Origin: Candidatus Kuenenia stuttgartensis
Lineage (GTDB): Bacteria; Planctomycetota; Planctomycetia; Planctomycetales; Planctomycetaceae
NCBI GenBank assembly: GCA_945861865.1
Contig: CAMAWN010000006.1
Span: 1 to 64,000 of the forward strand
Direction of reading: 5' to 3'
Length of the DNA: 64,000 nucleotides
Position numbers and translations under genes: made by a program. This document shows, piece after piece, positions 28,460 to 41,931 of this stretch. The number at the start of each line of letters is the position of its first letter. Positions within the stretch are counted from its first letter, which is position 1. The notes beneath the pieces were generated by a model that worked only from the letters and a program-made list of their open reading frames with translations, made no database searches and had not been told where the DNA came from.

Positions 28460-28529
28460 GTAGCCACGCTCGCCAGAGCGTGGGCAGTGGGCAGTACCTG
28501 CAATCCCACGCTCTGGCGAGCGTGGCTAC
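28460..28529. repeat. Gene-junction palindrome, family C (copy 2)
   Basis: Arms 28460-28484 and 28505-28529 are perfect 25-bp inverted copies around a 20-bp centre. Each arm folds as CCACGCTC / GAGCGTGG with a 4-nt loop. It fills the moxR to DUF58 spacer inside the operon. Confidence 0.92.
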
Positions 28530-29592: not shown

Positions 29593-29656
29593 GAGCCACG
29601 CTCGCCAAGAGCGTGGGTGGATTCGTGAAGACCCACGTTCTTGGCGAACATGGCTA
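29593..29656. repeat. Gene-junction palindrome, family C (copy 3)
   Basis: Left arm from 29593 (AGCCACGCTCGCC) and right arm 29632-29656 match at about 22 of 26 positions. The right arm keeps pairing through paired changes: CCACGTTC with GAACATGG where other copies have CCACGCTC with GAGCGTGG, with one C/A mismatch. It lies between the DUF4159 stop and the moxR start. Confidence 0.85.
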
Positions 29657-29667
29657 CACGATTTCAT

Positions 29668-31293
29668 TCAATGGCTCAACGCATACGTGATGATGTTCAT
29701 GACAACTCGAGTGGCATCGTCGGACGCGAGACCTTTCGCGTAGGCGTTGGACTCGTGATTCACGCCGCTCATCAGATCAAAGGGTGTGTAGATGACGGTA
29801 AGGCGACCGTCGAGAAACAGGCCGTAGAATTCCGGCGTTTCCAGAGTCGGATCGTCACGGAGTGCCGTGGGTGTGTATTCCACACGATCGACCGGATTCC
29901 AGCCGCTGGCAAACAGCGGATGCGTCGCGGGCAGTTTGATCAAGTCTCCTTCGGGGATGACTTTTTTCAGTTCGCGCCGGAAGCCGAGATCGAACGGCTT
30001 CAAGCCGGCCGCGGCGGTCGCGACGACCATCCCGCCACGTTGCAGATAATGCCTGAGCCCTTCGACCTCCTCACTGGTCAATTGGAAGTCGTAGTGACCG
30101 GTCATGAAGACGAGCGGGGAATCGGCGAGTTGCGGGTCATCCAGAGACACCGTGACCGGCGCATAATCGACTTCCAGACCAGTGTTGTCCCTCAGCCCCT
30201 GAAGCACGCTGTTTTGCAGCGCCGGGTTCACGTCCCAACTGCCGCTGTAGGCCACCATCCCGAACCGGAACACATCACCGGCGGCGGTTCGACCGTCATA
30301 AACCGGGAACTCCTGGGCGAGAAAGCGACCATACTCGGTGGCTCCCAAGACGTAGGCCACGATGTTCACTCCGAGACGCAGAGCCGATTCACCCACGAAA
30401 TGTTTTCCCTGAGGATGATAGGGCTCGCCGCTCCAGGCGGCTCCCATGCCGACGGGGACCAGGATCGCGGCCGCTCGCGTGCCGATATCCAGCGTGTAGA
30501 TCTCCGGAGGCTGCTGAAACTGCACGCCATTCACCAGGGTCATCAACTGTTGCACGCGGTATCGCGAGTTGAGCAACGGATGGTCCTGCGGCGCTCGCAT
30601 CAGCCGCTTCTGTGGAAAAACCTTCCGCATCTCGCGGGCCACGGCTTGTGAAAACTCATCCCGCCCGCGAGCCGCGTTGAACAGAATGGTGCCCCCTTCG
30701 CTCAGAAACTTCCGCAGGTTTTCGACTTCTTTCGGAGTGAACGTGAAGTCGTAATCGCCGGCCATGAAGAGCAACGGGATATCGACCGGATCAAATCCGG
30801 GGCTGGCGAGCGGCTTCGTGGCGTACTGATAGTTGTTGCCGTCGGCCAACCGCGCGTTGACCGTGGACATCAAGTAGTAGCCATCATTCGGAAAGCTCTT
30901 CCACTGCTCGAACTTTTGCACGGTGCCGTCGGTGTGAACGTACTCCAGCGTTTCGCCGTATTCGACTTTGTGCATCACCGTGAGATTCGTCGGTGGCGGA
31001 GGTGTGCGGGTCTGCGTTTTTCGCTGGCCGGGACCGGGATCGGGAATGACGCCGGTATCTTCGCCACTGGCCTCCATCTTCTGCGGTGCCTTCACCGGCG
31101 GCGGAGGCGGGGCCTCGGCCGGGGGAAAATTGACACGCCGCTGAGCAACGGCCGTGGACGACGAACCGAACAAGGCAACGAATAGGATCGTCCCACTCAC
31201 CCGAAGTGTGAGCGAGGGAGATCGCTTCACAAGACTTGATATCGGCGGCTTTGTGGGGCGCTCGCCCTCGCTCACGCTTCGGATAAGTGTCAT
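29668..31293 (-). CDS. Exported protein with two DUF4159 domains
   Basis: The 541-residue product has two copies of DUF4159: first VEYGETLEYVHTDG to FLSEGGTILFNAARG (about residues 108-300), then VFRFGMVAYSGSWDV to HYLQRGGMVVATAA (about 330-540). A proline-rich linker (PPAEAPPPPPVKAP) precedes them. The ATG at 31293 overlaps the upstream stop as ATGA. Between it and the hydrophobic core GTILFVALFGSSSTAVA lie 26 residues encoded by a family A palindrome. An alternative GTG start inside the palindrome ([13 protein letters not shown]) is possible. DUF4159 proteins accompany MoxR/BatA clusters; their activity is unknown. Confidence 0.88.
   Translation of the reverse strand: MTLIRSVSEGERPTKPPISSLVKRSPSLTLRVSGTILFVALFGSSSTAVAQRRVNFPPAEAPPPPPVKAPQKMEASGEDTGVIPDPGPGQRKTQTRTPPPPTNLTVMHKVEYGETLEYVHTDGTVQKFEQWKSFPNDGYYLMSTVNARLADGNNYQYATKPLASPGFDPVDIPLLFMAGDYDFTFTPKEVENLRKFLSEGGTILFNAARGRDEFSQAVAREMRKVFPQKRLMRAPQDHPLLNSRYRVQQLMTLVNGVQFQQPPEIYTLDIGTRAAAILVPVGMGAAWSGEPYHPQGKHFVGESALRLGVNIVAYVLGATEYGRFLAQEFPVYDGRTAAGDVFRFGMVAYSGSWDVNPALQNSVLQGLRDNTGLEVDYAPVTVSLDDPQLADSPLVFMTGHYDFQLTSEEVEGLRHYLQRGGMVVATAAAGLKPFDLGFRRELKKVIPEGDLIKLPATHPLFASGWNPVDRVEYTPTALRDDPTLETPEFYGLFLDGRLTVIYTPFDLMSGVNHESNAYAKGLASDDATRVVMNIITYALSH
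31201..31282. repeat. Family A palindrome (copy 2) inside a signal-peptide coding region
   Basis: Arms 31201-31218 and 31265-31282 differ at one of 18 positions; the outer sequence is CCGAAG-GTGAGCGAGGG. It lies downstream of the ATG at 31293 and is open in the gene's frame, encoding SVSEGERP at one end and SPSLTLR at the other. Related copy: 533-628. Confidence 0.88.
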
Positions 31294-32978
31294 GGCAGAC
31301 TGACCTCGATGGTCGGTTTCTTTTCATTCGGAATGGCACGATACCATCCGACCTCCGGCGCGACAGTCAGCGACTTCAAGACTTTCCGTTCCGTGCCTGC
31401 GGCTTGGACTGGCCCGACAATGTTGAGTTGATACGCCGGCGCTGGCTGAAGTTTGGCGTCCGCATCGTATTGCCAACTCCGGACAATGAGAGGTTCCAAC
31501 GATTGCGGTAACGGAGTGAATCCGTTTTTCAGCACAGGGGCGGGTGAGTTGCGAATGTTGGGATCTTGCGCTCCGGGGGGCAACGGAGTGGCCGGTTGAG
31601 CTGTCTTGATTTCAACAGCGATGCCTGGCGGAACTTGGCCGTTCACTTGGGCCACGACGAAGTTCAGCATCTGCACCGCTGGCAAACGCGGCTTTCCCGC
31701 GACGGTCGGAGTCGGAGCCCACCCCGGCGGGAAGGTGATGTCTTGAGGCGTTATCGGAGAATTGATCAACGTCAATGGGCCAGTCGCCATGTAGATCTTG
31801 TAGCCGTTCGGATTCGGCACCATGTCGCGAATCACAAGGTTCGTCATCTGGACCGTCGCGCCGCCGTGATAGTAGGCCGATTGCGATCCGGAGATCGTGA
31901 TATCTTCCAACGTCCCCGCAGCGCTGGTCAGCGTCATGCCGTGTGTGCAATCCTTGATGAGCAACTGCTTGACCATGAAGCCGCTGCCGTACCAATACAG
32001 GCCGGCCGCACATTTCTCGATCACGTTGTTGGTCATGATGCACTCAGGCTGGCCGTAGCAGGTGATGCCGCCAGGATAGTTGCCGCGGATTGTGTTTCCA
32101 CGGACTTCAATCAAAGGGCAGACGGAGATGTAGAGAGCCGCTTGTGGCACCGGAAACGGGTCGTCGCGCTCGAAGTGGTTGTCCGCCACGACGGCGGAAT
32201 CACACGAGGTCAGGTACAGACGGCTGGTCCCGCTGAATCGGTTCTTGATCACGTTGATCCGCTCACCGGGCTTGACTCCGGTGTTGTCGATGCCGGTCGG
32301 CTGAGCGTAGATGTTGATCAACTCGGCCCGCTGAATGTCGAAGGTCGATCCCGTGGCGGCTTCCAAGATGGCCGTCGGATCAGGCTGCGGCGTTCCGGCC
32401 GGGACTTCTTTTTTCGGAGGCCGTGAAGTGATCAAGGCATTCTTGCGTCCTTGAGTTAAGCCCAGTCGTCCCGACACGACGAGGCCGCCTCCTTTGGCGA
32501 TCTTGAGCGTCCGCTGTTCGGTGTCTGCGGCAACGAGCCGGAATTCGTGTTGGTCCTTCGCCGACTTGGAAGCATCCAGACGGATGTAGCCGTAGCTTTC
32601 CACGAGGCCGTTTGCGCAGAACACGATCGATCCGGCTCCGACTTTGAATTGCAACACGGATCGAGGATCGAGCGACAGTTGCCGGCAGGTGATCTGTCCA
32701 TCGTCATTACGGTTGAACGTCACTGTGTCATCGCGAGCGATCACGACATCGTCGTCCGCCGCAGGAACCTTGCCGCCGCGCCACGCCGCAGGGTCAGACC
32801 AATCCCCTCCGCCCGATGCGTTGGAATAAATCTCGTCGGCGAAGCTCATCGTGTTCGGAGAAAGAATACCCAAGCACACCGTGACCAGCGCGAAACGTAG
32901 GGTGGGTCGAGTCATCGAGACCCACCAGAACGTCTGGATGACTCGACCCACCCGACGGCGACAGCGACGACATTTCAT
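31290..32978 (-). CDS. Exported protein with G8-like domain and parallel beta-helix
   Basis: The 562-residue product has an N-terminal hydrophobic core (FALVTVCLGILSP, cleavage near SFA), a G8-like stretch (GDWSDPAAWRGGKVPAADDD, VVIARDDTVTF) and then many short beta-helix turns (VRGNTIRGNYPGGITCYGQ, LYWYGSGFMVKQLLIKDC, TLEDITISGSQSAYYHGGA). Such proteins are usually surface polysaccharide-binding or lyase-like. The start overlaps the upstream stop (ATGA at 32975-32978) and a palindrome separates MKCRRCRR from the hydrophobic core; an internal ATG at 32915, inside the palindrome arm, is an alternative. No catalytic residues can be assigned. Confidence 0.85.
   Translation of the reverse strand: MKCRRCRRRVGRVIQTFWWVSMTRPTLRFALVTVCLGILSPNTMSFADEIYSNASGGGDWSDPAAWRGGKVPAADDDVVIARDDTVTFNRNDDGQITCRQLSLDPRSVLQFKVGAGSIVFCANGLVESYGYIRLDASKSAKDQHEFRLVAADTEQRTLKIAKGGGLVVSGRLGLTQGRKNALITSRPPKKEVPAGTPQPDPTAILEAATGSTFDIQRAELINIYAQPTGIDNTGVKPGERINVIKNRFSGTSRLYLTSCDSAVVADNHFERDDPFPVPQAALYISVCPLIEVRGNTIRGNYPGGITCYGQPECIMTNNVIEKCAAGLYWYGSGFMVKQLLIKDCTHGMTLTSAAGTLEDITISGSQSAYYHGGATVQMTNLVIRDMVPNPNGYKIYMATGPLTLINSPITPQDITFPPGWAPTPTVAGKPRLPAVQMLNFVVAQVNGQVPPGIAVEIKTAQPATPLPPGAQDPNIRNSPAPVLKNGFTPLPQSLEPLIVRSWQYDADAKLQPAPAYQLNIVGPVQAAGTERKVLKSLTVAPEVGWYRAIPNEKKPTIEVSLP
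32900..32953. repeat. Palindrome inside a signal-peptide coding region
   Basis: Arms 32900-32916 and 32937-32953 are perfect 17-bp inverted copies (GGGTGGGTCGAGTCATC and its complement). One half also pairs GGTGGGTC with GACCCACC. It is open in frame between MKCRRCRR and FALVTVCLG of the beta-helix protein, encoding GRVIQTFWWVSMTRPT. Confidence 0.88.
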
Positions 32979-35680
32979 GGCCGTTCCCCCGGAGACGATC
33001 CGTCGATGAAGTTGCTCAGCCAGTGTAATTCTTCGTCAGAGACGGATCGCACTTGGAGTCCATCAATCTCACAGGCTCCATGAATCAACGCCCCGAACAG
33101 GACACGGCCGTCCAACGCTTGCGGCGGAGCATCGAGCATGAAGCCGATCTTTCGCCATGCGCCGTAGGTCCGCTCGTTGAAGTACGTCCCCACGCCCTTC
33201 ACCGGGACGTAGTCGCTCCCTTGGCCGTAGAAGTTCAGATACATGTGCGAATTGAATCCAGGGAAGGCCGTCAGCAAATCGTCGCGATACCAGACTTCGG
33301 CCCAGTAATGCCCGGTCGTGGTCAAGTTTGGCAGCGGGCGTTCGAGCGTCAGGTATCCGAGATAAACCGGATGAGCTTCCAGCAGTCCGACGTGTGGACC
33401 CGCCAGTCCCATGCCGCGCACGAATTTGAGGTTGGTCGGCTTGCCGAACCACTGTGATTCCTCCGGCTCGAAGCCAGAGACGACATCCGCGAACGGCGGC
33501 AGTTTCGCTGAGCCGCCGTCTGTCGTGGGGATAGCGCGTGCCAGCCGCTCTTCGAGCTGCTTCTTGCGATCGGCCAATTTTTCCTTCTCGAAGTATTTGG
33601 GAAACGCTTGCTCCAGTTGACTGAGCCTCTTCAGCGCTTCGGGAAGCTGACCCATGCGGACCAGACATTCCACCATGCCATGCAGTGTTCGGTCTCGATA
33701 GCCGGCCCACTGCCGCAGTTGCAGCAAGACTTCGTAGTTCCGCAGCGAGGCGTCATATTTTCCGGCAACGCGGTCCGCCTCGGCTCGCAGAAAGCGATAC
33801 AAGCCTTCGAGTTTTTGATCCGGGTAGTTCAACTCAATCTTGTCGAGCAACAGCCGAGTTTCGCGGATGTCGCCTGTCCGCAGTTTTTGCTCGGCGACGC
33901 GCAACAGTGCCCCGCGTGTCACGGCTTCGGATTGAGCGGTCGCCAGAAACGCTTCTCCACCCAAGGTGGCCGCCATGCGGTAGAGTTCGCCGGCGGCTTT
34001 GATCTTGCCAGCTTCGGCAAACAGATCGCCGCGGTGGATTGCCACGATCCGCATGTCGGGATGTTCGAGACGGCGATGCTTCTCCAAGAGCGCGTCGTAT
34101 CGTCGTGCCGCGTCATCGGTGTCTTTGAATTGCCGGTGAATGATGTCCGTGGCCGTCAATTGGATTCCCACTTGCAGTGTCGGCAACTTACCGAATTCTT
34201 GATTGGCCTGTTCGAGCACCTTCTCCATCTCGGCCTTACGACCGTTGTGTCCCAGCGCCGTGATCAAGGACTTGAACAGCTCGGCGCGAAGCTGCGGATC
34301 GAGCCCCGGTGCAGCCAAACGATGCTTCGCCAATTTCTCCAAGAGCGGCCAACGCTCCGGTGCTTCCGAGGACATGAGGAAGTCCAAGATTCGATCTTGC
34401 CGCTCGGCCGGGAATGTTTCGACGTTCGCAGTCGCCAATTCCCGAATGACGTAGCGAATGGAAAATGGACTGATCGAACCCGGTGCGGCCCAGACATGCA
34501 CACGGCGTTGAAACGACGGCAACGATCCACCGCCGGACAGCGTCACCACATAATCTCCGGGAGCAAAGTAAACGTGCCGCACGCTCCGGCCGACCGCTTC
34601 CGTGCCGTCTCCGAAATTCCAAGTCAGTTGGGATTCCTCCGGCAGGTCGCCCTGAGCTTCAAAGCGGACGAGATACAGCGTCGAGTCTCCGGCCGCGACG
34701 AGGGCATCATCAATGCCATAGCCGAACGACGCACCGGTGTTCGGCCCCGCCACTTCCAATGCGGCGACATGAGCATAATCGGGGTGCACGAACATGTCGC
34801 GCGGCACATAGGCCCACGTCTTCGCTCCCGGCGGAACCCACAACAACGAACATCCGCCGTAGGTGCCGGGGCTTTCCTTCAACACATGATACATCTCGAC
34901 GGTATGCACGCCGGTTTTGAGTTCCAGCTCCGCACCGATGGACTTCGTCGGAATCGAACCGGTCAGGCGTTGATTCGATCCGGGCCGGTCGCAGACTTTG
35001 AATCCGTCGATGAAAAGAAACGACGCATCCTCGGAGTTCACAAAGAAACGGTAGACCCCATCGGCTTTGATATTCAGGTGGCCGCGATACGTCACCGCGT
35101 AATCATGCGGATTGGCCGGGCGAACGGGATTGCTGTTCTGCACCATTTCCGTGACCAGCCCATTCGCCACGACGGGGTCGCTCTTGGTCAACCCCTCGCG
35201 GACCACCGTCCAACTGGAAATGTCGCCTCCTTTCCAATCGCGAGCTTCCAACACGATCCCTTCGGGAATCGGCTCGGCCGCTGCCGGCGGCGCGGCGGGA
35301 TTTCTGGCATGAACCCAGTACCAGACATCCGCCCCATGACGCGGAAACTGAATGAGCGTGTCTCCGTGAGGAGTGTGAGACAGCACGGCGACCGGCAGCG
35401 CCGTTCCATCGGCACAGACGACGGCAACATCCGAACCATCCGGCTTCAACCAGCCACCGGTCGGCAACCGAGCCATGATCGATTTCGATGTTGATTGAGC
35501 CGGACTCAAGCCCATCAGCCGCAGCGTGTATCGCAACTGATAACCGTCGAGCCATGCCGGCTGTTTCTCCGGCAGCGGTTCGATCACGTTCTTCTGCGGC
35601 TCGGCTGGAGGCGCGGTGGCCTGTCCAAAGACAGGTCCGATGGCTCCACACACAACAGCAGTGACGATCAGCATTCGCAT
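32975..35680 (-). CDS. Large exported protein with PA14-like and PKD domains and TPR-like region
   Basis: The 901-residue product starts MRMLIVTAVVCGAIGPVFG (signal peptide). A PA14-like module lies in about residues 200-320 (GVYRFFVNSEDASFLFIDG, LKTGVHTVEMYH), a PKD domain in about 370-430 (LTWNFGDGTEAVGRSVRHVY, GDYVVTLSGG), a helical TPR-like stretch in 430-720 (GDIRETRLLLDKIELNYPDQ), and a C-terminal beta-sandwich with FDVVSGFE-like and GVGTYFNERTYGAWRKIGF. The open frame continues upstream to 35833 through a palindrome. The role is probably carbohydrate or surface binding, by domain content only. Confidence 0.85.
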   Translation of the reverse strand: MRMLIVTAVVCGAIGPVFGQATAPPAEPQKNVIEPLPEKQPAWLDGYQLRYTLRLMGLSPAQSTSKSIMARLPTGGWLKPDGSDVAVVCADGTALPVAVLSHTPHGDTLIQFPRHGADVWYWVHARNPAAPPAAAEPIPEGIVLEARDWKGGDISSWTVVREGLTKSDPVVANGLVTEMVQNSNPVRPANPHDYAVTYRGHLNIKADGVYRFFVNSEDASFLFIDGFKVCDRPGSNQRLTGSIPTKSIGAELELKTGVHTVEMYHVLKESPGTYGGCSLLWVPPGAKTWAYVPRDMFVHPDYAHVAALEVAGPNTGASFGYGIDDALVAAGDSTLYLVRFEAQGDLPEESQLTWNFGDGTEAVGRSVRHVYFAPGDYVVTLSGGGSLPSFQRRVHVWAAPGSISPFSIRYVIRELATANVETFPAERQDRILDFLMSSEAPERWPLLEKLAKHRLAAPGLDPQLRAELFKSLITALGHNGRKAEMEKVLEQANQEFGKLPTLQVGIQLTATDIIHRQFKDTDDAARRYDALLEKHRRLEHPDMRIVAIHRGDLFAEAGKIKAAGELYRMAATLGGEAFLATAQSEAVTRGALLRVAEQKLRTGDIRETRLLLDKIELNYPDQKLEGLYRFLRAEADRVAGKYDASLRNYEVLLQLRQWAGYRDRTLHGMVECLVRMGQLPEALKRLSQLEQAFPKYFEKEKLADRKKQLEERLARAIPTTDGGSAKLPPFADVVSGFEPEESQWFGKPTNLKFVRGMGLAGPHVGLLEAHPVYLGYLTLERPLPNLTTTGHYWAEVWYRDDLLTAFPGFNSHMYLNFYGQGSDYVPVKGVGTYFNERTYGAWRKIGFMLDAPPQALDGRVLFGALIHGACEIDGLQVRSVSDEELHWLSNFIDGSSPGERP

Positions 35681-35701
35681 TGTGAAGAAATGATTTGTTC
35701 G

Positions 35702-35829
35702 CCACGGATGAAACACGGATGAAACACGGATTTGGGAATCCCTTCCAAGAGATGGCATTGGCCATCGCCACTTGGTTCTCGTTCGTGTCGTTTTGTTTGA
35801 TCCGTGTTTCATTCGTGTTGAATCCGTGG
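35702..35829. repeat. Long palindrome between two exported-protein genes
   Basis: Arms 35702-35734 and 35797-35829 match at about 28 of 33 positions (arm begins CCACGGAT) around a 62-bp centre. Each arm contains internally repeated GGATGAAACAC-like units. It fills nearly all of the spacer between the DNRLRE gene stop (35850) and the next start (35680) and is open in the downstream gene's frame. Confidence 0.85.
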
Positions 35830-35849
35830 CCATTCACTGCTTTGCAAAC

Positions 35850-36464
35850 TCATTGTGGCTCATACGTGATCCGTAATTTCCATTGCTTGGCTCCGTTCCA
35901 GAACGGCGAATGCGTGCGGAACCAGCCCATCGCTTCATCCGTCGTGATCTGCCAGCCGAAGTTGGGGACCGTTCCCGAATACCACAACTCAAGGTCTTCC
36001 GTGACGTTGAAGGTATGCTCGCCCGAACCTTGAATGGAAGCCGAGGCCGTTGCCTTGACCGCTCGGTCTTGCCCCAACCCCATCGCGCCGGGTGTGTGCC
36101 ATTCCAGACGATTGGGTCGCGTGATGCGATATTGGTGTGAGACGCCCGACCCCCAGCCCTGCAAGATCCGGCGGACCTGCACACGAACGCCGGTCGCGGG
36201 ATAGACTTGGGCATACGGCACGACCCATTCCGCTTTGGTGATGCGCTGGCCGGGAGGGATTTTCTCCAGCGGATAGCGGATCAGAAACGACGTCTTCGGA
36301 GTCAGGTCAATCTGGTGATTGCCATATTCTCCGTTGGCATTCACGACCGCCGCCCAACTCATGCGCGGCGCGTCCGACGAGATCGCCGCCATCAGTTCGC
36401 AATCGGCATCCGTCAACACGATCGTCTTCGCCGAGACGGTTGATGAGGCCAAGACCAGCAGCAT
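35850..36464 (-). CDS. Exported DNRLRE-type (CBM96-like) protein
   Basis: The 204-residue product begins MLLVLASSTVSA (short hydrophobic leader) and continues with a DNRLRE-like beta-sandwich: TIVLTDADCELMAAISS, a FLIRYPLEKIPPGQRITKAE strand, VRVQVRRILQGWGSGVS and DLELWYSG followed by NFGWQITTDEAMGWF. Such modules bind cell-surface glycans. The leader lacks the usual positive residues next to ATG 36464; in-frame TTG 36473 and GTG 36467 exist, and the frame stays open through the adjacent palindrome to 36611. The N-terminus may have been altered by that insertion. Confidence 0.75.
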   Translation of the reverse strand: MLLVLASSTVSAKTIVLTDADCELMAAISSDAPRMSWAAVVNANGEYGNHQIDLTPKTSFLIRYPLEKIPPGQRITKAEWVVPYAQVYPATGVRVQVRRILQGWGSGVSHQYRITRPNRLEWHTPGAMGLGQDRAVKATASASIQGSGEHTFNVTEDLELWYSGTVPNFGWQITTDEAMGWFRTHSPFWNGAKQWKLRITYEPQ

Positions 36465-36473
36465 CACAGCCAA

Positions 36474-36539
36474 GTAGCCACGCTCGCCAAGAGCGTAGAC
36501 AAATTCGCGAACACCCACGCTCTTGGCGAGCGTGGCGAC
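36474..36539. repeat. Gene-junction palindrome, family C (copy 4)
   Basis: Left arm 36474-36498 (GTAGCCACGCTCGCCAAGAG) and right arm 36514-36539 match closely and each folds as an 8-bp hairpin with a 5-nt loop. It occupies the spacer between the stop at 36551 and the start near 36464, and is open in frame with the downstream exported protein. Confidence 0.9.
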
Positions 36540-36550
36540 CCAAGGATGAT

Positions 36551-37960
36551 TCACGGCATCTTCTCCACAGGGACGTACAACTTTCCAAACTTCGGCGACC
36601 AAGCGAGGCACTCGACCGTCGGATTGTTGACCGTCATCTGCATGGCCGAGGGTTTGAACTTTCCTTCGGCATCCAAGTCGATCAAACAGACTCGGCCATT
36701 CGCTCCAATCGCCAACTGATTGGTTTTCTCCAGGACCAACGGAGTGCTGTAATACACGAAGTGGTCGTTGGTCATGGTCTGTGGGGCCAGAGTCAATTGC
36801 CCATCGGCGTGCTCCATCCGATTGATGCGTCCGTCATAAACGAGCGTCGCGATGTAGACTGACGGAACGGTCGGATGAACGGCGACACGGTAGCGATAGG
36901 CGACATACGGCTGAAGGTAGAAATAGCAATAGCGCCCCAATCGGTCGGACAGCACCCAACTGACTGGACCGGAGTGGCCTGCCAAAAAGATGGCATCGTC
37001 GTTGAAGGGAACATAGCAGTACGGGGCCGGCACACTGGCGAACGAGTACGTGGTCGCTTCCATGTACTTCCGCAAGACGAGCGGTTGTCCTGTCGCTTTC
37101 GATTGCTCGATGGCCGCGAGCTTCGCGATCCGAGCGGCATTGGCCGCAGCAGGATCAAGCGGAGGAAGTGGCACGATCGGTTTCACGTCTTCTGGCGGGG
37201 TATTCGGCGGAGCTACGGCTGGCAAGCCGTCGGGATCGAGCACGAACCAACCGATCGTCGTGACGAGCTTCTTCGTGCGGTCCAGCTGCTGCATGTTAGG
37301 AACGTACAACCTCGTCATCACAGGATTCAGCGCGAATCCGCCAGCCAGTGCTCCGCAACTGAAGTCCGCTCCGCGCGCCGTGGCGAAGATGAGCTTGGGT
37401 TGCGGCTCGTCGAGACCATAGATCAAGAGATGATCGAACTCGGCGGAGACCGCCGGATCGGTCGGCTTGTCATCGGGCAACGGTTCGACATCCTGCCAGA
37501 CATAAAGCAGCGGCAACCGAGGATGACAAAGCAGACCAAGCACATGGTTGGGCCGCGCACCAAACGTCGCCGGCTTCGGCAACGTGATCGTCACGGGATC
37601 GCCGGGGACGATCTGCCCTTGAGCATCCAAACGGAAAAGCGACACATGTGCCACAGATTTCGGACGATGCCCGACAGCAAGCGTGCCTGCAACATCGCTG
37701 ACCGCAACATGCCTCGCTGCCGGAGCGACCACGGTCGTCACAAACGGCAGCGGAGTTTCCGGCACAGTGAGCACACGAATCTCGCGCTGCGCGAAAGCTG
37801 GATGTGCCGCACTAATCACACAAAACAAGACCGCCGTGGCCCACTTGAAACTTGGCAGAACGATGTGGGCAGAACGATGAGATGAAAATGATTGAGTCAT
37901 CCGATTTGACGGCATCATTCTTGTTCCCATTGTTCTGCCCACATCGTTCTGCCAATTCAT
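36551..37960 (-). CDS. Exported protein of unknown function, beta-propeller-like
   Basis: The 469-residue product has a hydrophobic leader (FKWATAVLFCVISAAHPAFA) and a body of repeated short strands such as VAPAARHVAVSDVAGTLAVG, LLCHPRLPLLYVWQDVEPL, HPTVPSVYIATLVYDGRINR and CLAWSPKFGKLYVPVEKMP, which suggests a beta-propeller. No catalytic motif is recognised. The ATG at 37960 overlaps the upstream stop (ATGA). Between it and the leader lie about 35 residues encoded by a palindrome (QNDVGRTMG start), so the original start may have been MN directly before FKWATAVLF. Confidence 0.75.
   Translation of the reverse strand: MNWQNDVGRTMGTRMMPSNRMTQSFSSHRSAHIVLPSFKWATAVLFCVISAAHPAFAQREIRVLTVPETPLPFVTTVVAPAARHVAVSDVAGTLAVGHRPKSVAHVSLFRLDAQGQIVPGDPVTITLPKPATFGARPNHVLGLLCHPRLPLLYVWQDVEPLPDDKPTDPAVSAEFDHLLIYGLDEPQPKLIFATARGADFSCGALAGGFALNPVMTRLYVPNMQQLDRTKKLVTTIGWFVLDPDGLPAVAPPNTPPEDVKPIVPLPPLDPAAANAARIAKLAAIEQSKATGQPLVLRKYMEATTYSFASVPAPYCYVPFNDDAIFLAGHSGPVSWVLSDRLGRYCYFYLQPYVAYRYRVAVHPTVPSVYIATLVYDGRINRMEHADGQLTLAPQTMTNDHFVYYSTPLVLEKTNQLAIGANGRVCLIDLDAEGKFKPSAMQMTVNNPTVECLAWSPKFGKLYVPVEKMP
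37854..37953. repeat. Palindrome inside a signal-peptide coding region
   Basis: Arms 37854-37879 and 37928-37953 differ at one of 26 positions. Each arm holds two direct copies of GGCAGAACGATG-like sequence. It begins 7 bp inside the gene starting at 37960 and is open in its frame up to the signal-peptide core. Confidence 0.88.
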
Positions 37961-40900
37961 GGCATTCGATCCGGCGCGGCCAGTCGTTGGTAATAGGTCT
38001 TCACGGCCTCCTCGTAACCCGGTGGAACGGATCGGGCCGGGTCATCCAATACGTTGCCTCGGACTCGCTGTTCGCGAGGCAAACTCGCTTGGAATCCGGA
38101 GTGCGCCTGGTGAAAGACCTGCAACACTCCGCGAACTCGTTCGAGCGTCTGCTGCTGCAACCGAAAAATTTCCGCCGAGGGTCGATCATTGAGGCTGTGC
38201 AGGTTCGCCTGCATCTGATCAATCAGTTGGTCGAGGTGTTCTGTCGGCAGATAAAGATTCTTGAGATCTTTGCGGATCGTCTTCAGCCGCTCGATGATCT
38301 GTTCTTGCTTGCCGTTCATGTCACGCATCAATTCAGCGACGCTCGCATCGAGCTTCCCGCCCTGACGTTCGACGATGGAGTTCTTCGCTTGCGGCTTGTC
38401 CATGCGATTGATCATGTCGTCGGTCCATTCGCCGACGTCGCTCAGGCTGAACTTGGCGTCATCGGATTCGACCTTCCGTCCACCGATGCCGGTCGAGGTG
38501 TCGCTCTGCGGATCGTTGCTCTTGGTTTCTTTGACGGTGTCCTTCTGGTCGGGGACACGATCCTGACCTTCCTGAACTTTGTCTCGGCCACGGCGATTGA
38601 TCGATTCATTGCCGACCGCCACGCCGTGCGCCCGCGCCCCTTGCCGGCCGATTCGCGAGGCTCCGCCGACGTTGGTCGTGGGCGGCTTTTGGTTGCCGGT
38701 GGCAGCCGAGGCGGCCGTCGAATTCAAATCGCCTCCCTGTTTGCCAACGTCCCCCTTTTCATTGATGTTGAAGGCCGCGTTGAGATTGTAAGTCTCATAG
38801 TTGTCCTTCATCGCGTCTTCTTCTTCCAGCAGATCGCCGACGAGGTCTTCAAACTTCTCCTGAATGTGCGGCTTGACTTTATTTCCCTTGCGGTCGGACT
38901 GGTTAGGAAAGCTCGGCTCGCCGCCGGGAGTCTTGGCCAGGCTGAGATTCTTGAACTCCTGCCGCATCCCCGTGTCTGCTCGCTGCAATCCCGGCACGGC
39001 GCTATCGGGAAACAGATAATCGTTCGGTTTCGATTCGTCGTCCCCTTCGCCCTTCTTCTTTTTCTGCTGAGCCACTTCCACTTGATGGATGATTTCCTCC
39101 AACTTGAGACCGTTGGGTTCGTCGAGCAGGTCTTCGGAGGAACCTTCCTTCAGCTTTCCCAACTCGGCCTGACGCTCCAGCTTGCTCTCATCGTTTTCAG
39201 ACTTCTCGGCCAGTAGACGACGAGCGGCTTCCGCCAGAGCCTCACGCAGCTTCTTGTAGATTTCATCGAGTGATGCCGCCGCTTGTGCCTGCTGCTGAGT
39301 AGCGACAGACCAATTTTGTGCTTCAATCGCTGACTGAGCCGACTTCTGCATCCCGAGCAATTCGTCTCCGGCCAACGCTTCAGACGTTTCAGCAAATGCT
39401 TCACTCAACGGCGACTCGGATTCCGCAGCTCGTTCGGCCAGTGCGGAAAACGCGGTGGAGGCCAGTCTGCACAGTTCGTTGAGTTTCACTTGCCGCCGAG
39501 ATCCGGTGGCCTGTTGCGCCGCAGTAGGTTGAGACTCCTGTCCCGACCAGCGAGCGGATTGATCCCGGAGAATCGCCTGCCGATCAGCCAACATGCGAAG
39601 GAACGGCGTCATGTGTGCCAATTCCCATTCCTTGCGGAAGTGCAGGTACTGCTCGTGAATCTCCCGCAGACTTTGCAGCGTGCGAGCCATCGTCGCTCGC
39701 GCGTCGGCAAAGGAGTTTCGCCGACCGGCAGCGTCATCCCGCGTGGCCACACTGTCCAACACTCGAATGGCGCGGATCATTTCCGAATCCGCCAGCATCG
39801 CGACCGACAGTCTCAAGCTGCCCGCCGGCGGTACCATCTCGCGAGCGATCCGTCCTGCCGTCTGTCGCAATTGATCCTGCGTCTTGGAATGCTCAACCGC
39901 TTCCGTGATCAGACCTTTCACCCGTTCCGGAACATTTCCATCGGCGGCAGGATCGGCGTCGAGCTTGCGAATCAACACATCGAGCGCCGCGTGCAATTTC
40001 TGCTCGACCGCGATCAAGCCGGCGATCTCGGCCTCGGATTTCAGAATCTGCTCGTACAGCAACTGCAACTGCGAACCATCACCCGTCACGAGCAACAGAT
40101 GAGTGATTCCCGTCGTCCACGTCGCGGCACGATCCGGCCGCGCATCCGACGCGCGAGCGGCCAGTTCAATCCGCTCTCCCTCCGAAACGCCAAAGGCTGT
40201 CGGCGTGACTTCGGTGGTCTTCGTTGTCTGCCGAGCATTTTCCGAGGGCCAAGTTTGAAGTGCGATCCAACCGTCATCCTCCATTGGATCGGCTTTGGCT
40301 TTCATCTTGCGGAAAAAAAGTCCGGTGCGCGATAGCCCGATGTCATCCAGCGCATCCACCTGCAACGCAATCGCCGAGTCGATCGACAACTCGCCGTTTG
40401 TTGGCAAGCCGCTCAACGTCGTACGCGGGAGTTCATCGGCCACGGTTCGTATGTTGAACCAAGCACTCAGATGCGGCGTTCGATTGGCCCGCTGCGTTTC
40501 CAACGCGTACTCCGTGATGTTCGCAAAAGTCAGTTCGCCAGAAAACTCTGTCGCACTGAGGTTTTTCAGTTCGACCACTCGCGAATCAGCCGCAAGACTT
40601 GTCGCCGAGGTCGTGAGACTTCGGTCCGAACTCTCACGAGTTCGGCGACGTCCGGCACCATCCTCGGTCGACGATGGGGAGCCTTCTCGAACGAGCAACC
40701 GGACTCCTTCGACCGGTTGATCGAACACAAACTTCAGTTGTGCTTGGGTTCCTTCGAGCGCCTCCAGATCGCCGCTCGTTTGCGCCGACTTGTCGGGCAG
40801 CTGCGCGTACTCCGGAAAGTGGTAGTTCACTTCGACCCATTGCAGCCGAGCCGACGTCGGTACCTCGATCCGGAAATACGGACTGGTGAAATCGCCGCCA

Positions 40901-41676
40901 TGCACAGCGTAGGACAAACTCCGTTGGACGTTGCGGAGGGTGTAAGTCACCGTCTCGCTTTGGACCGAAACCAACTGAGTGCTTCGACGATTCTGTTCGT
41001 CGAGCAGAATCGTGATTTCGGCGGGCCGTTCGCCAAGAATCCGCACACGGATTTCGACGTCCCCGGAGGCTTCGATATTTCCCGGCTCAACTTCCAACCG
41101 AGTCCGATAGACTGGGTCAACCGAGGCAAACGGCAGCAAAATCCGCTTGGCAGAACTAGCAAACCGCTGAGGCTGCCACATCCAACCGATCACCGCGGTG
41201 AGGGTGAATGTTCCCGCCAAGGCCAACCACATCGCCGCCGGCTGAACCGCGACGGCCGCCGGCAACCGAAGTTGTGAGAGCTGGCGACAATTCTCCTGAA
41301 CGAGTGCCGGTGCCCAGGTAGAATTCCCCTGCGCCGCCTCACGGCTCAACTGCAACGTATTGATCAGCCGATTCTGAATCCGACCGGAGAACCGCCGCTC
41401 CATAGCCAAAGCGACCTCGTCTTCGGTCGCATGCCGTTCTTGCCAGCGCCGTGCCAGACCTCGTCCGAACCGGAATAGGACCGCACATAAACCGCCGGCC
41501 GTCGCCACTCGTCCCCACATCGGAAGATGCGCAAGACTATCGACCAGGATGGCCACCAGAAAGTAAGCCCAGAGAGCGGATAGCGTCCAACCCAGCGCCT
41601 CCAACAGATTCCATCGCTGCCAACGAACTCGTTGAGATTCCACCAACTGTCGCAAGGTATCGATGCGATCCATCAT
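37957..41676 (-). CDS. Large membrane-anchored coiled-coil protein (DUF4175-like)
   Basis: The 1239-residue product has N-terminal membrane helices (residues 22-45 LLEALGWTLSALWAYFLVA; 55-75; and about 150-170 AAMWLALAGTFTLTAVIGWMW), a large beta-rich region and then long helices from about 650 on (AAASLDEIYKKLREALAEAA, ESKLERQAELGKLKEGSS). It resembles DUF4175 proteins that head MoxR/BatA clusters. The ATG ATG at 41676-41671 is preceded by GAAGGT and gives a plausible start; the frame is open to 41886. It begins the ten-gene minus-strand operon. The function is unknown. Confidence 0.85.
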   Translation of the reverse strand: MMDRIDTLRQLVESQRVRWQRWNLLEALGWTLSALWAYFLVAILVDSLAHLPMWGRVATAGGLCAVLFRFGRGLARRWQERHATEDEVALAMERRFSGRIQNRLINTLQLSREAAQGNSTWAPALVQENCRQLSQLRLPAAVAVQPAAMWLALAGTFTLTAVIGWMWQPQRFASSAKRILLPFASVDPVYRTRLEVEPGNIEASGDVEIRVRILGERPAEITILLDEQNRRSTQLVSVQSETVTYTLRNVQRSLSYAVHGGDFTSPYFRIEVPTSARLQWVEVNYHFPEYAQLPDKSAQTSGDLEALEGTQAQLKFVFDQPVEGVRLLVREGSPSSTEDGAGRRRTRESSDRSLTTSATSLAADSRVVELKNLSATEFSGELTFANITEYALETQRANRTPHLSAWFNIRTVADELPRTTLSGLPTNGELSIDSAIALQVDALDDIGLSRTGLFFRKMKAKADPMEDDGWIALQTWPSENARQTTKTTEVTPTAFGVSEGERIELAARASDARPDRAATWTTGITHLLLVTGDGSQLQLLYEQILKSEAEIAGLIAVEQKLHAALDVLIRKLDADPAADGNVPERVKGLITEAVEHSKTQDQLRQTAGRIAREMVPPAGSLRLSVAMLADSEMIRAIRVLDSVATRDDAAGRRNSFADARATMARTLQSLREIHEQYLHFRKEWELAHMTPFLRMLADRQAILRDQSARWSGQESQPTAAQQATGSRRQVKLNELCRLASTAFSALAERAAESESPLSEAFAETSEALAGDELLGMQKSAQSAIEAQNWSVATQQQAQAAASLDEIYKKLREALAEAARRLLAEKSENDESKLERQAELGKLKEGSSEDLLDEPNGLKLEEIIHQVEVAQQKKKKGEGDDESKPNDYLFPDSAVPGLQRADTGMRQEFKNLSLAKTPGGEPSFPNQSDRKGNKVKPHIQEKFEDLVGDLLEEEDAMKDNYETYNLNAAFNINEKGDVGKQGGDLNSTAASAATGNQKPPTTNVGGASRIGRQGARAHGVAVGNESINRRGRDKVQEGQDRVPDQKDTVKETKSNDPQSDTSTGIGGRKVESDDAKFSLSDVGEWTDDMINRMDKPQAKNSIVERQGGKLDASVAELMRDMNGKQEQIIERLKTIRKDLKNLYLPTEHLDQLIDQMQANLHSLNDRPSAEIFRLQQQTLERVRGVLQVFHQAHSGFQASLPREQRVRGNVLDDPARSVPPGYEEAVKTYYQRLAAPDRMP

Positions 41677-41931
41677 GTGACCTTCGTCAATCACCAGGAG
41701 GTCTTTCGGAGAACGCAGCGTTGCCCCGACTTCGCTCCGCCAGTGTATTCGTCGGCGAAAAGCTGGTTCAATACCGACAAGTCTGAGCCAATCCGCTCTC
41801 GTCAAGTGAAAAACGTCCCACCATCGCCGGACCCACGAGTCGATCGAGAGTTTCACGGAGTTGATTCGCCAAAGCCAGCGCGCCAAGCCGTCAAGTTCAA
41901 GTCGTCGTGAATCGGCGAGCTGGTTTCTCGC

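Follow-up and report, generated by a model that had tools for sequence, protein, structure and literature searches.

Palindromic repeats are usually thought to be extragenic, and copies at the N-termini of genes have been suspected to reflect misannotated start sites (PMC3733652). The locus studied here raises the question of whether palindromes lying between the start codon and the signal-peptide core of exported proteins are translated, and of why they are found there. The window (the whole stretch of 64,000 nucleotides that was analysed) is part of a 6.2-Mb planctomycete-like metagenome bin (the own genome), and all the palindromes discussed lie in one co-directional operon on the minus strand, whose features are summarized in Table 1. 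We compared it with four genomes of the same genus that hold the operon (G004, G005, G006 and G010), and with homologues that keep much of its gene order in a more distantly related planctomycete and in Verrucomicrobiota/Lentisphaerae bins (the outgroups). All genomes compared are metagenome-assembled, and signal peptides were called by a hydrophobicity threshold rather than by a dedicated predictor.

Palindromes and start codons in the operon

The preliminary description had placed the palindromes at 37854, 32900 and 31201 in frame between an ATG of an ATGA overlap and the hydrophobic core. This is confirmed here for J1, J4 and J5, where the ATG overlaps the preceding TGA and the frame runs open from it through the palindrome. 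The copies at 36474 and 35702 had also been regarded as open in the frame of the next exported protein, which proved correct for the former only. At J2 the overlap codon is a GTG, in frame and open. At J3, in contrast, the overlap codon lies in another frame, an open frame begins only at an ATG within or adjoining the palindrome, and beyond the palindrome comes the ordinary start ATGCGAATGCTG (M-R-M-L-I-V..., about 35680); this palindrome is probably not translated. As described earlier, each junction from J1 to J5 has a different arm family, and that of J2 is seen again at J6 and J7. These two junctions and the J8 palindrome had not figured in the preliminary description. The J6 and J7 palindromes lie upstream of starts that are conserved across the relatives, the overlap frame at J6 being closed, and since both precede cytoplasmic proteins, they provide an internal control for the fused exported cases.

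Table 1. Genes, start codons and palindromes of the operon (window coordinates)
Feature	Position	Strand	Remarks
First gene of the operon	37957-41886	-	1309-aa protein
Five exported proteins after the first gene		-	unclassified 469-aa, a small one, PKD/PA14/TPR, beta-helix, DUF4159
Last genes, in order		-	MoxR ATPase, DUF58 protein, BatA-like protein
J1 gene	36551-37960	-	secreted protein
J2 gene	35850-36554	-	
J4 gene	31290-32978	-	beta-helix protein
J5 gene	29668-31293	-	DUF4159 protein
J8 palindrome	40601..40649	-	variable linker within the first gene's coding region; in frame
J0 linker	39500..39550	-	first gene; empty in the window
ATGA overlap at J1	37957..37960	-	stop of the 37957-41886 gene / start of the next gene
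J1 palindrome	37852..37955	-	TGGCAGAACGATGTGGGCAGAACGATG arms, 28 nt; about codons 3-36 of the secreted protein; fused leader
GTGA overlap start of the J2 gene	36551..36554	-	
J2 palindrome	36474..36539	-	GTAGCCACGCTCGCCAAGAGCGTGGG family, arm 23 nt; in frame, GTGA start to signal-peptide core
J3 palindrome	35701..35830	-	CACGGATGAAACACGGAT family, arm 31 nt; upstream of the likely ATG at about 35680
ATGA overlap start at J4	32975..32978	-	
J4 palindrome	32896..32957	-	GGGTGGGTCGAGTCATC arms, 26 nt; about codons 8-28 of the beta-helix protein; fused leader
ATGA overlap start at J5	31290..31293	-	
J5 palindrome	31194..31289	-	CCGAAGCGTGAGCGAGGGCG family, arm 39 nt at 82%; about codons 2-33 of the DUF4159 protein; fused leader
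J6 palindrome	29594..29655	-	before the cytoplasmic MoxR ATPase; upstream of ATG at about 29541; unfused
J7 palindrome	28460..28529	-	before the cytoplasmic DUF58 protein; upstream of ATG at about 28449; unfused

Turnover of families among relatives

Nearly all junctions are occupied in each species of the genus, and the family of the occupant varies. At J1, the own genome, G010 and G006 share one family in the same frame, while G004 carries a second and G005 a third. The J2 palindrome, which belongs to one family in the own genome, G010 and G004, to a second in G006 and to a third in G005, is in frame in all five species. The own genome has one family at J3, and G010, G006 and G005 have another that is fused in frame; J4 is occupied by one family in the own genome, by a second in G010 and by a third in G004 and G006, and J5 by one in the own genome and G006 and by another in G010. 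In G004, the scan found no palindrome at J3 or J5. Inside the first gene, the J0 linker of the four relatives carries palindromes, about 70-76 nt long, that stay in frame, and it lacks them in the window and the outgroups, and the J8 linker holds different palindromes in different species at the same place. The relatives display different families at one junction, with the frame kept, and the ATGA overlap start at J1 is conserved in all four.

In G004 (L009, contig C51), two small gene pairs stand at J3 and J5, where relatives have palindromes. One includes a PemK/MazF-type toxin gene; the other consists of a gene with a weak DUF5678 match (below the Pfam cut-off) and a small gene of no known family.

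In some cases, the palindrome arms appear to supply part of the predicted signal peptide itself. The peptide read from the J3 element of G010, G006 and G005, NPKR[EQ]RGRM...GA(L/I)(A/S)LA[HD]ASGYL, amounts to a basic segment (KRERGR) and then a portion of the hydrophobic core (ALALAHASGYL), and the second arm of the G010 J4 element reads HALASVAT and joins the core.

Reading-frame evidence

In 19 of the 23 species-junctions in the genus, the overlap codon was in frame and no stop interrupted the reading frame between it and the mature protein. When shared insertions were counted once, this was so for 11 of 15 events, as grouped by family and by eye (p=0.0018 against the one third expected of a random frame and elements without stops), and p becomes smaller once stops are allowed for. 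The +1 frame contained stops in every case and the +2 frame in most. The elements are GC-rich, however, and have few stops in one or two frames, so that open frames are less surprising than they might seem. In all four exceptions (J1 of G005, J3 of the own genome, and J3 and J5 of G004), an ATG immediately precedes the signal peptide.

It could be argued that translation starts at an ATG, GTG or TTG inside or after the palindrome, the elements being ordinary intergenic insertions whose open frames are due to chance and a stop-poor sequence. ATGs do exist inside the palindromes at J1 (M-TQSFSS) and J4 (M-TRPTLRFALVTV) and in the J3 loops of G010 and G006, the J3 copy at 35702 and the other frame exceptions fit such a reading, and it has been argued that most N-terminal REPs of P. 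putida, C. koseri and S. maltophilia may be untranslated (PMC3733652). We consider it improbable, however, in view of the 11 of 15 independent events with the overlap codon in frame and open, of the length differences between species in shared insertions, which preserve the frame (3 nt at J3, 12 nt at J4 and 9 nt at J5), and of most fused cases, in which there is no ATG between palindrome and core. Moreover, at J1 of one Verrucomicrobiota-like bin (L110), no other in-frame ATG occurs over 237 codons.

Outgroups and the ancestral start

The overlap start at J1 was conserved in outgroups L108, L109, L111, L114 and L116, and that at J4 in the Verrucomicrobiota L109, L111 and L114 and in L116. Four of these (L108, L109, L111 and L114) had overlap starts at J1, J4 and/or J5 followed by palindrome-free leaders of 65-99 nt, except for J4 of L111 (150 nt); no in-frame overlap start was found at J5 of L111 or J1 of L113. 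Fused leaders in the genus measure 123-195 nt, and those of the window, once the palindrome is subtracted, 51-76 nt. This bears out the earlier proposal that removing the palindromes would leave ordinary leaders, and because the palindrome-free outgroups use the same overlap start with leaders close to this length, both that start and short leaders are indicated to be ancestral. The overlapping start codon is, on the sequences compared, older than the insertions. The preliminary description had also allowed that relatives without palindromes might start these genes at downstream codons; the palindrome-free outgroups start them at the overlap.

Palindromes at the same junctions in L110 and L116, bins called Verrucomicrobiota-like from the similarity of their operons only, represent independent cases. 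L116 has at J2 an in-frame palindrome of 66 nt with a 25-bp stem, next to an ATG that abuts the stop rather than overlapping it, and at J4 an in-frame palindrome of 143 nt, where a later ATG might serve as the start instead. At J1 of L110 (L110:9287-9997), an open leader of 711 nt (237 codons) contains three different palindromes, although long open frames are less surprising at the GC content of this bin (66%). Its J2 palindrome is in frame too (read by hand, as was that of L116), and at J3 the frame is broken.

The operon as a hot spot

To place the operon in its genomic context, we carried out a census on the longest contigs of the own genome (1.22 Mb) and of G010 (0.93 Mb), with genes called by a custom codon-usage scorer in place of a standard gene finder. 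The own genome sample contained 131 palindromes, 64 of them within 550 co-directional pairs. A first census without the overlap criterion showed no excess of the gene's frame, because most palindromes sit upstream of normal starts. Among overlap-start junctions of the two genomes, a palindrome was present in the leader in 9/11 cases in the operon and in 4/119 elsewhere (p=2e-9, a value that is descriptive for the own genome, whose operon was picked for its unusual look, and for which G010 is not an independent sample, some insertions being shared). Likewise, the co-directional junctions of the operon were all filled (7/7) in the own genome (the seventh identified by hand), G006 and G010, versus 4/27, 7/35 and 23/51, respectively, in the rest of the same contigs.

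It had been suggested that the starts of secreted proteins attract or tolerate such insertions. Tolerance is the likely reading for this operon but does not extend to a general rule: outside it, in the two census samples, palindromic overlap leaders were found in 3/48 genes with a signal-peptide-like segment and 1/71 without one (p=0.30), a difference that gives no support to a genome-wide preference for secreted starts. The operon attracts insertions, secreted starts in general do not, and tolerance alone does not account for the high palindrome load of the operon. In G010, a palindrome occurs in 41% of co-directional junctions versus 1/45 overlap junctions outside the operon, a contrast that arises partly by construction, as any element landing between the stop and the start removes the overlap itself, and that fits with coupled junctions excluding insertions unless these fall after the start.

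Other in-frame palindromic overlap leaders outside the operon were seen in G000 (C19:4118 and C8:31636) and in G010 (C2:6620, minus strand).

Families, presumed mobility and hairpin shape

Each of 12 genomes of the genus yielded 12-153 matches per strand to the arms of the J5 family (CCGAAGCGTNAGCGAGGGCG / CCGAAGCG), against 0 in the control, and the arms of the family CACGCTCGCCAAGAGCGTGG / CACGCTCGCC gave 3-30 per strand. These elements are inverted doublets with many dispersed copies, as are REPINs and GTAG REPs. Of the tetranucleotide tags GTAG and CGTC that mark the foot of such repeats, GTAG is present in the GTAGCCACGCTCGCC... and GTAGCCGAAGTCG... families, and not in the TAACCCGAAGCG..., TGGCAGAACGATG..., CACGGATGAAAC... 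and GGGTGGGTCGAGTCATC families. Y1-type transposases exist in 11 of the 12 genomes of the genus. The own genome has three Y1_Tnp matches, with no window-family repeats nearby, and none of the loci examined linked such a transposase to the families of the window. Such a link emerged solely for the J1 element of G005: in the same genome, a Y1-type transposase gene (L134:1190-1370, contig C308) is flanked by nested palindromes like this insert (18/18 and 21/23 identical). Taken together, we infer that the palindromes of the window are copies of several short, non-autonomous mobile families, REPIN- or MITE-like, the mobility of most of them being presumed.

Two further observations concern the elements themselves. 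A second class of palindromes, unlike classical REPs, has arms made of short near-repeats (GCAGAACGATG twice; CACGGATGAAA, AATGACGAA and GTGCAAAGTGC repeats); it comprises those at 37852-37955 and 35701-35830 of the window, at J6 of G010 (L007) and at J2 of G005 (L010). The loop of the J2 palindrome at 36474-36539 is reversed with respect to J2 of G010 and G004, as if it had flipped between the arms or been inserted twice.

The arms stay symmetric while the loops diverge, with paired changes between species at J3 and J5; there are also decayed hairpins, with four mismatched pairs at J1 of G006 and seven at J5 of the own genome. Symmetry and covariation hint at selection on the hairpin, or at its repair, and template-switch repair, recent replacement or selection are possible sources. 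On this mixed evidence, strict conservation of the hairpin was rejected as the sole driver. A related explanation is that the hairpins act as RNA, slowing the ribosome after each coupled start or enforcing strict coupling, so that exported proteins are made only by ribosomes arriving from the preceding gene and any family serves. The full occupancy of J1 to J7 in the own genome, G010 and G006, the independent occupancy in the Verrucomicrobiota-like bins and the paired changes in the symmetric arms would agree with such a function. Hairpins are lacking, however, at the junctions of the same operon in other PVC bacteria (L108, L109, L111 and L113) and in other coupled secreted genes, some have decayed as just described, and in G004 small gene pairs take the place of two of them; we therefore regard an RNA function as unlikely.

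That the palindromes are chance inverted repeats, or repeats misassembled in metagenome bins, is extremely improbable. All the genomes are metagenome-assembled, but clean elements, in frame and with conserved flanks, occupy the same junctions in independent assemblies, and a first-order Markov simulation gave no such palindromes in three simulated windows.

Discussion

Recurrent in-frame insertion of palindromic elements in the signal-peptide leaders of coupled genes is well supported for this operon. We believe that the palindromes were inserted after the overlapping start and that translation turns them into an extended signal-peptide leader, which we find the likely explanation on sequence comparison. 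The sequences themselves show the palindromes, their frame, the conserved start, the turnover of families and the hot spot; translation from the overlap codon, coupling as a filter, removal of the leader by cleavage and the mobility of most families are the inferred parts of this proposal. In E. coli, gaps of 38 nt nearly abolish termination-reinitiation (PMC10666635). In an NTGA-coupled operon, an element that separated the start from the preceding stop would disrupt translational coupling, while one lying just after the start would keep it if the frame stayed open. The leader of an exported protein would tolerate the insert, as cleavage removes the signal peptide and all that its initial segment must provide ahead of the hydrophobic core is some positive charge. 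Post-start insertions in secreted genes would survive because coupling is kept and the leader is tolerant, and would be translated as an extended leader; where the frame is lost through an insertion, initiation would pass to a new ATG beside the signal peptide. The same junctions may be hit, or their occupants replaced, repeatedly, leaving sister species with different families.

A broader version can be put forward only tentatively, and we hold it to be more doubtful than the explanation above: coupled starts may channel mobile palindromes into signal-peptide leaders, the only safe site where gaps break coupling, providing interchangeable leader material (one arm basic, the other hydrophobic) that turns over between species and arose independently in two phyla. 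The conserved overlap starts, the kept frame and the palindrome-free outgroups make a strong case for coding palindromes that are swapped between species. Signal-peptide leaders may, on this evidence, be built from mobile DNA, and translational coupling gives an explanation, open to test, for the places in which such insertions persist.

Comparison with known systems

Literature searches brought up nothing directly relevant to palindromes in signal peptides, although several known systems are similar. Plain termination-reinitiation coupling at ATGA overlaps (PMC6728339, PMC10666635) is matched by the canonical 4-nt overlap of J1, J2, J4 and J5, but here a hairpin of 50-130 nt is added directly after the overlapping start. 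MITEs are likewise short and non-autonomous and can extend open reading frames through in-frame fusions (PMC10969869); in contrast to them, no cognate transposase was found for the families of the window in the loci examined. GTAG-type REPs and REPINs, which are RAYT-associated, share the short inverted-repeat doublets, the many copies and the mostly co-directional junctions, and one family here begins with GTAG and ends with CTAC as they do. GTAG REPs have been reported in Planctomycetes, and intragenic and N-terminal copies of REPs are on record too (PMC3733652). A difference is that no Y1-family transposase was found adjacent to the window's families, only the J1 element of G005 matching repeats that border one. 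The same work deems many N-terminal REPs non-coding, whereas the relatives compared here argue for coding. In the recB gene of Xanthomonas, different REPs occupy about one gene site in two species (PMC3733652), but in the present operon the pattern recurs at most junctions and in two linkers.

The Rickettsia palindromic elements (RPE) are also palindromic, of several families, in frame in protein genes and translatable into an extra peptide (PMC10969869), and R. conorii proteins with an N-terminal RPE-1 are expressed, as cited in PMC3733652. The likeness considered here is one of form and position. As with RPE, in-frame palindromes are absent from orthologues, both in the J0 linker (four relatives versus the window and outgroups) and in the J1, J4 and J5 leaders (versus the palindrome-free outgroups), and the J0 and J8 linkers, in which palindromes come and go in frame, resemble the RPE pattern. 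Unlike RPE, the fused copies of the window cluster in leaders after the overlapping starts of one operon, families replace each other at one site in sister species, and most genomic copies are intergenic. Translated palindromic repeats are already a known kind; what is new here is the site preference, the turnover of families and the recurrence across phyla.
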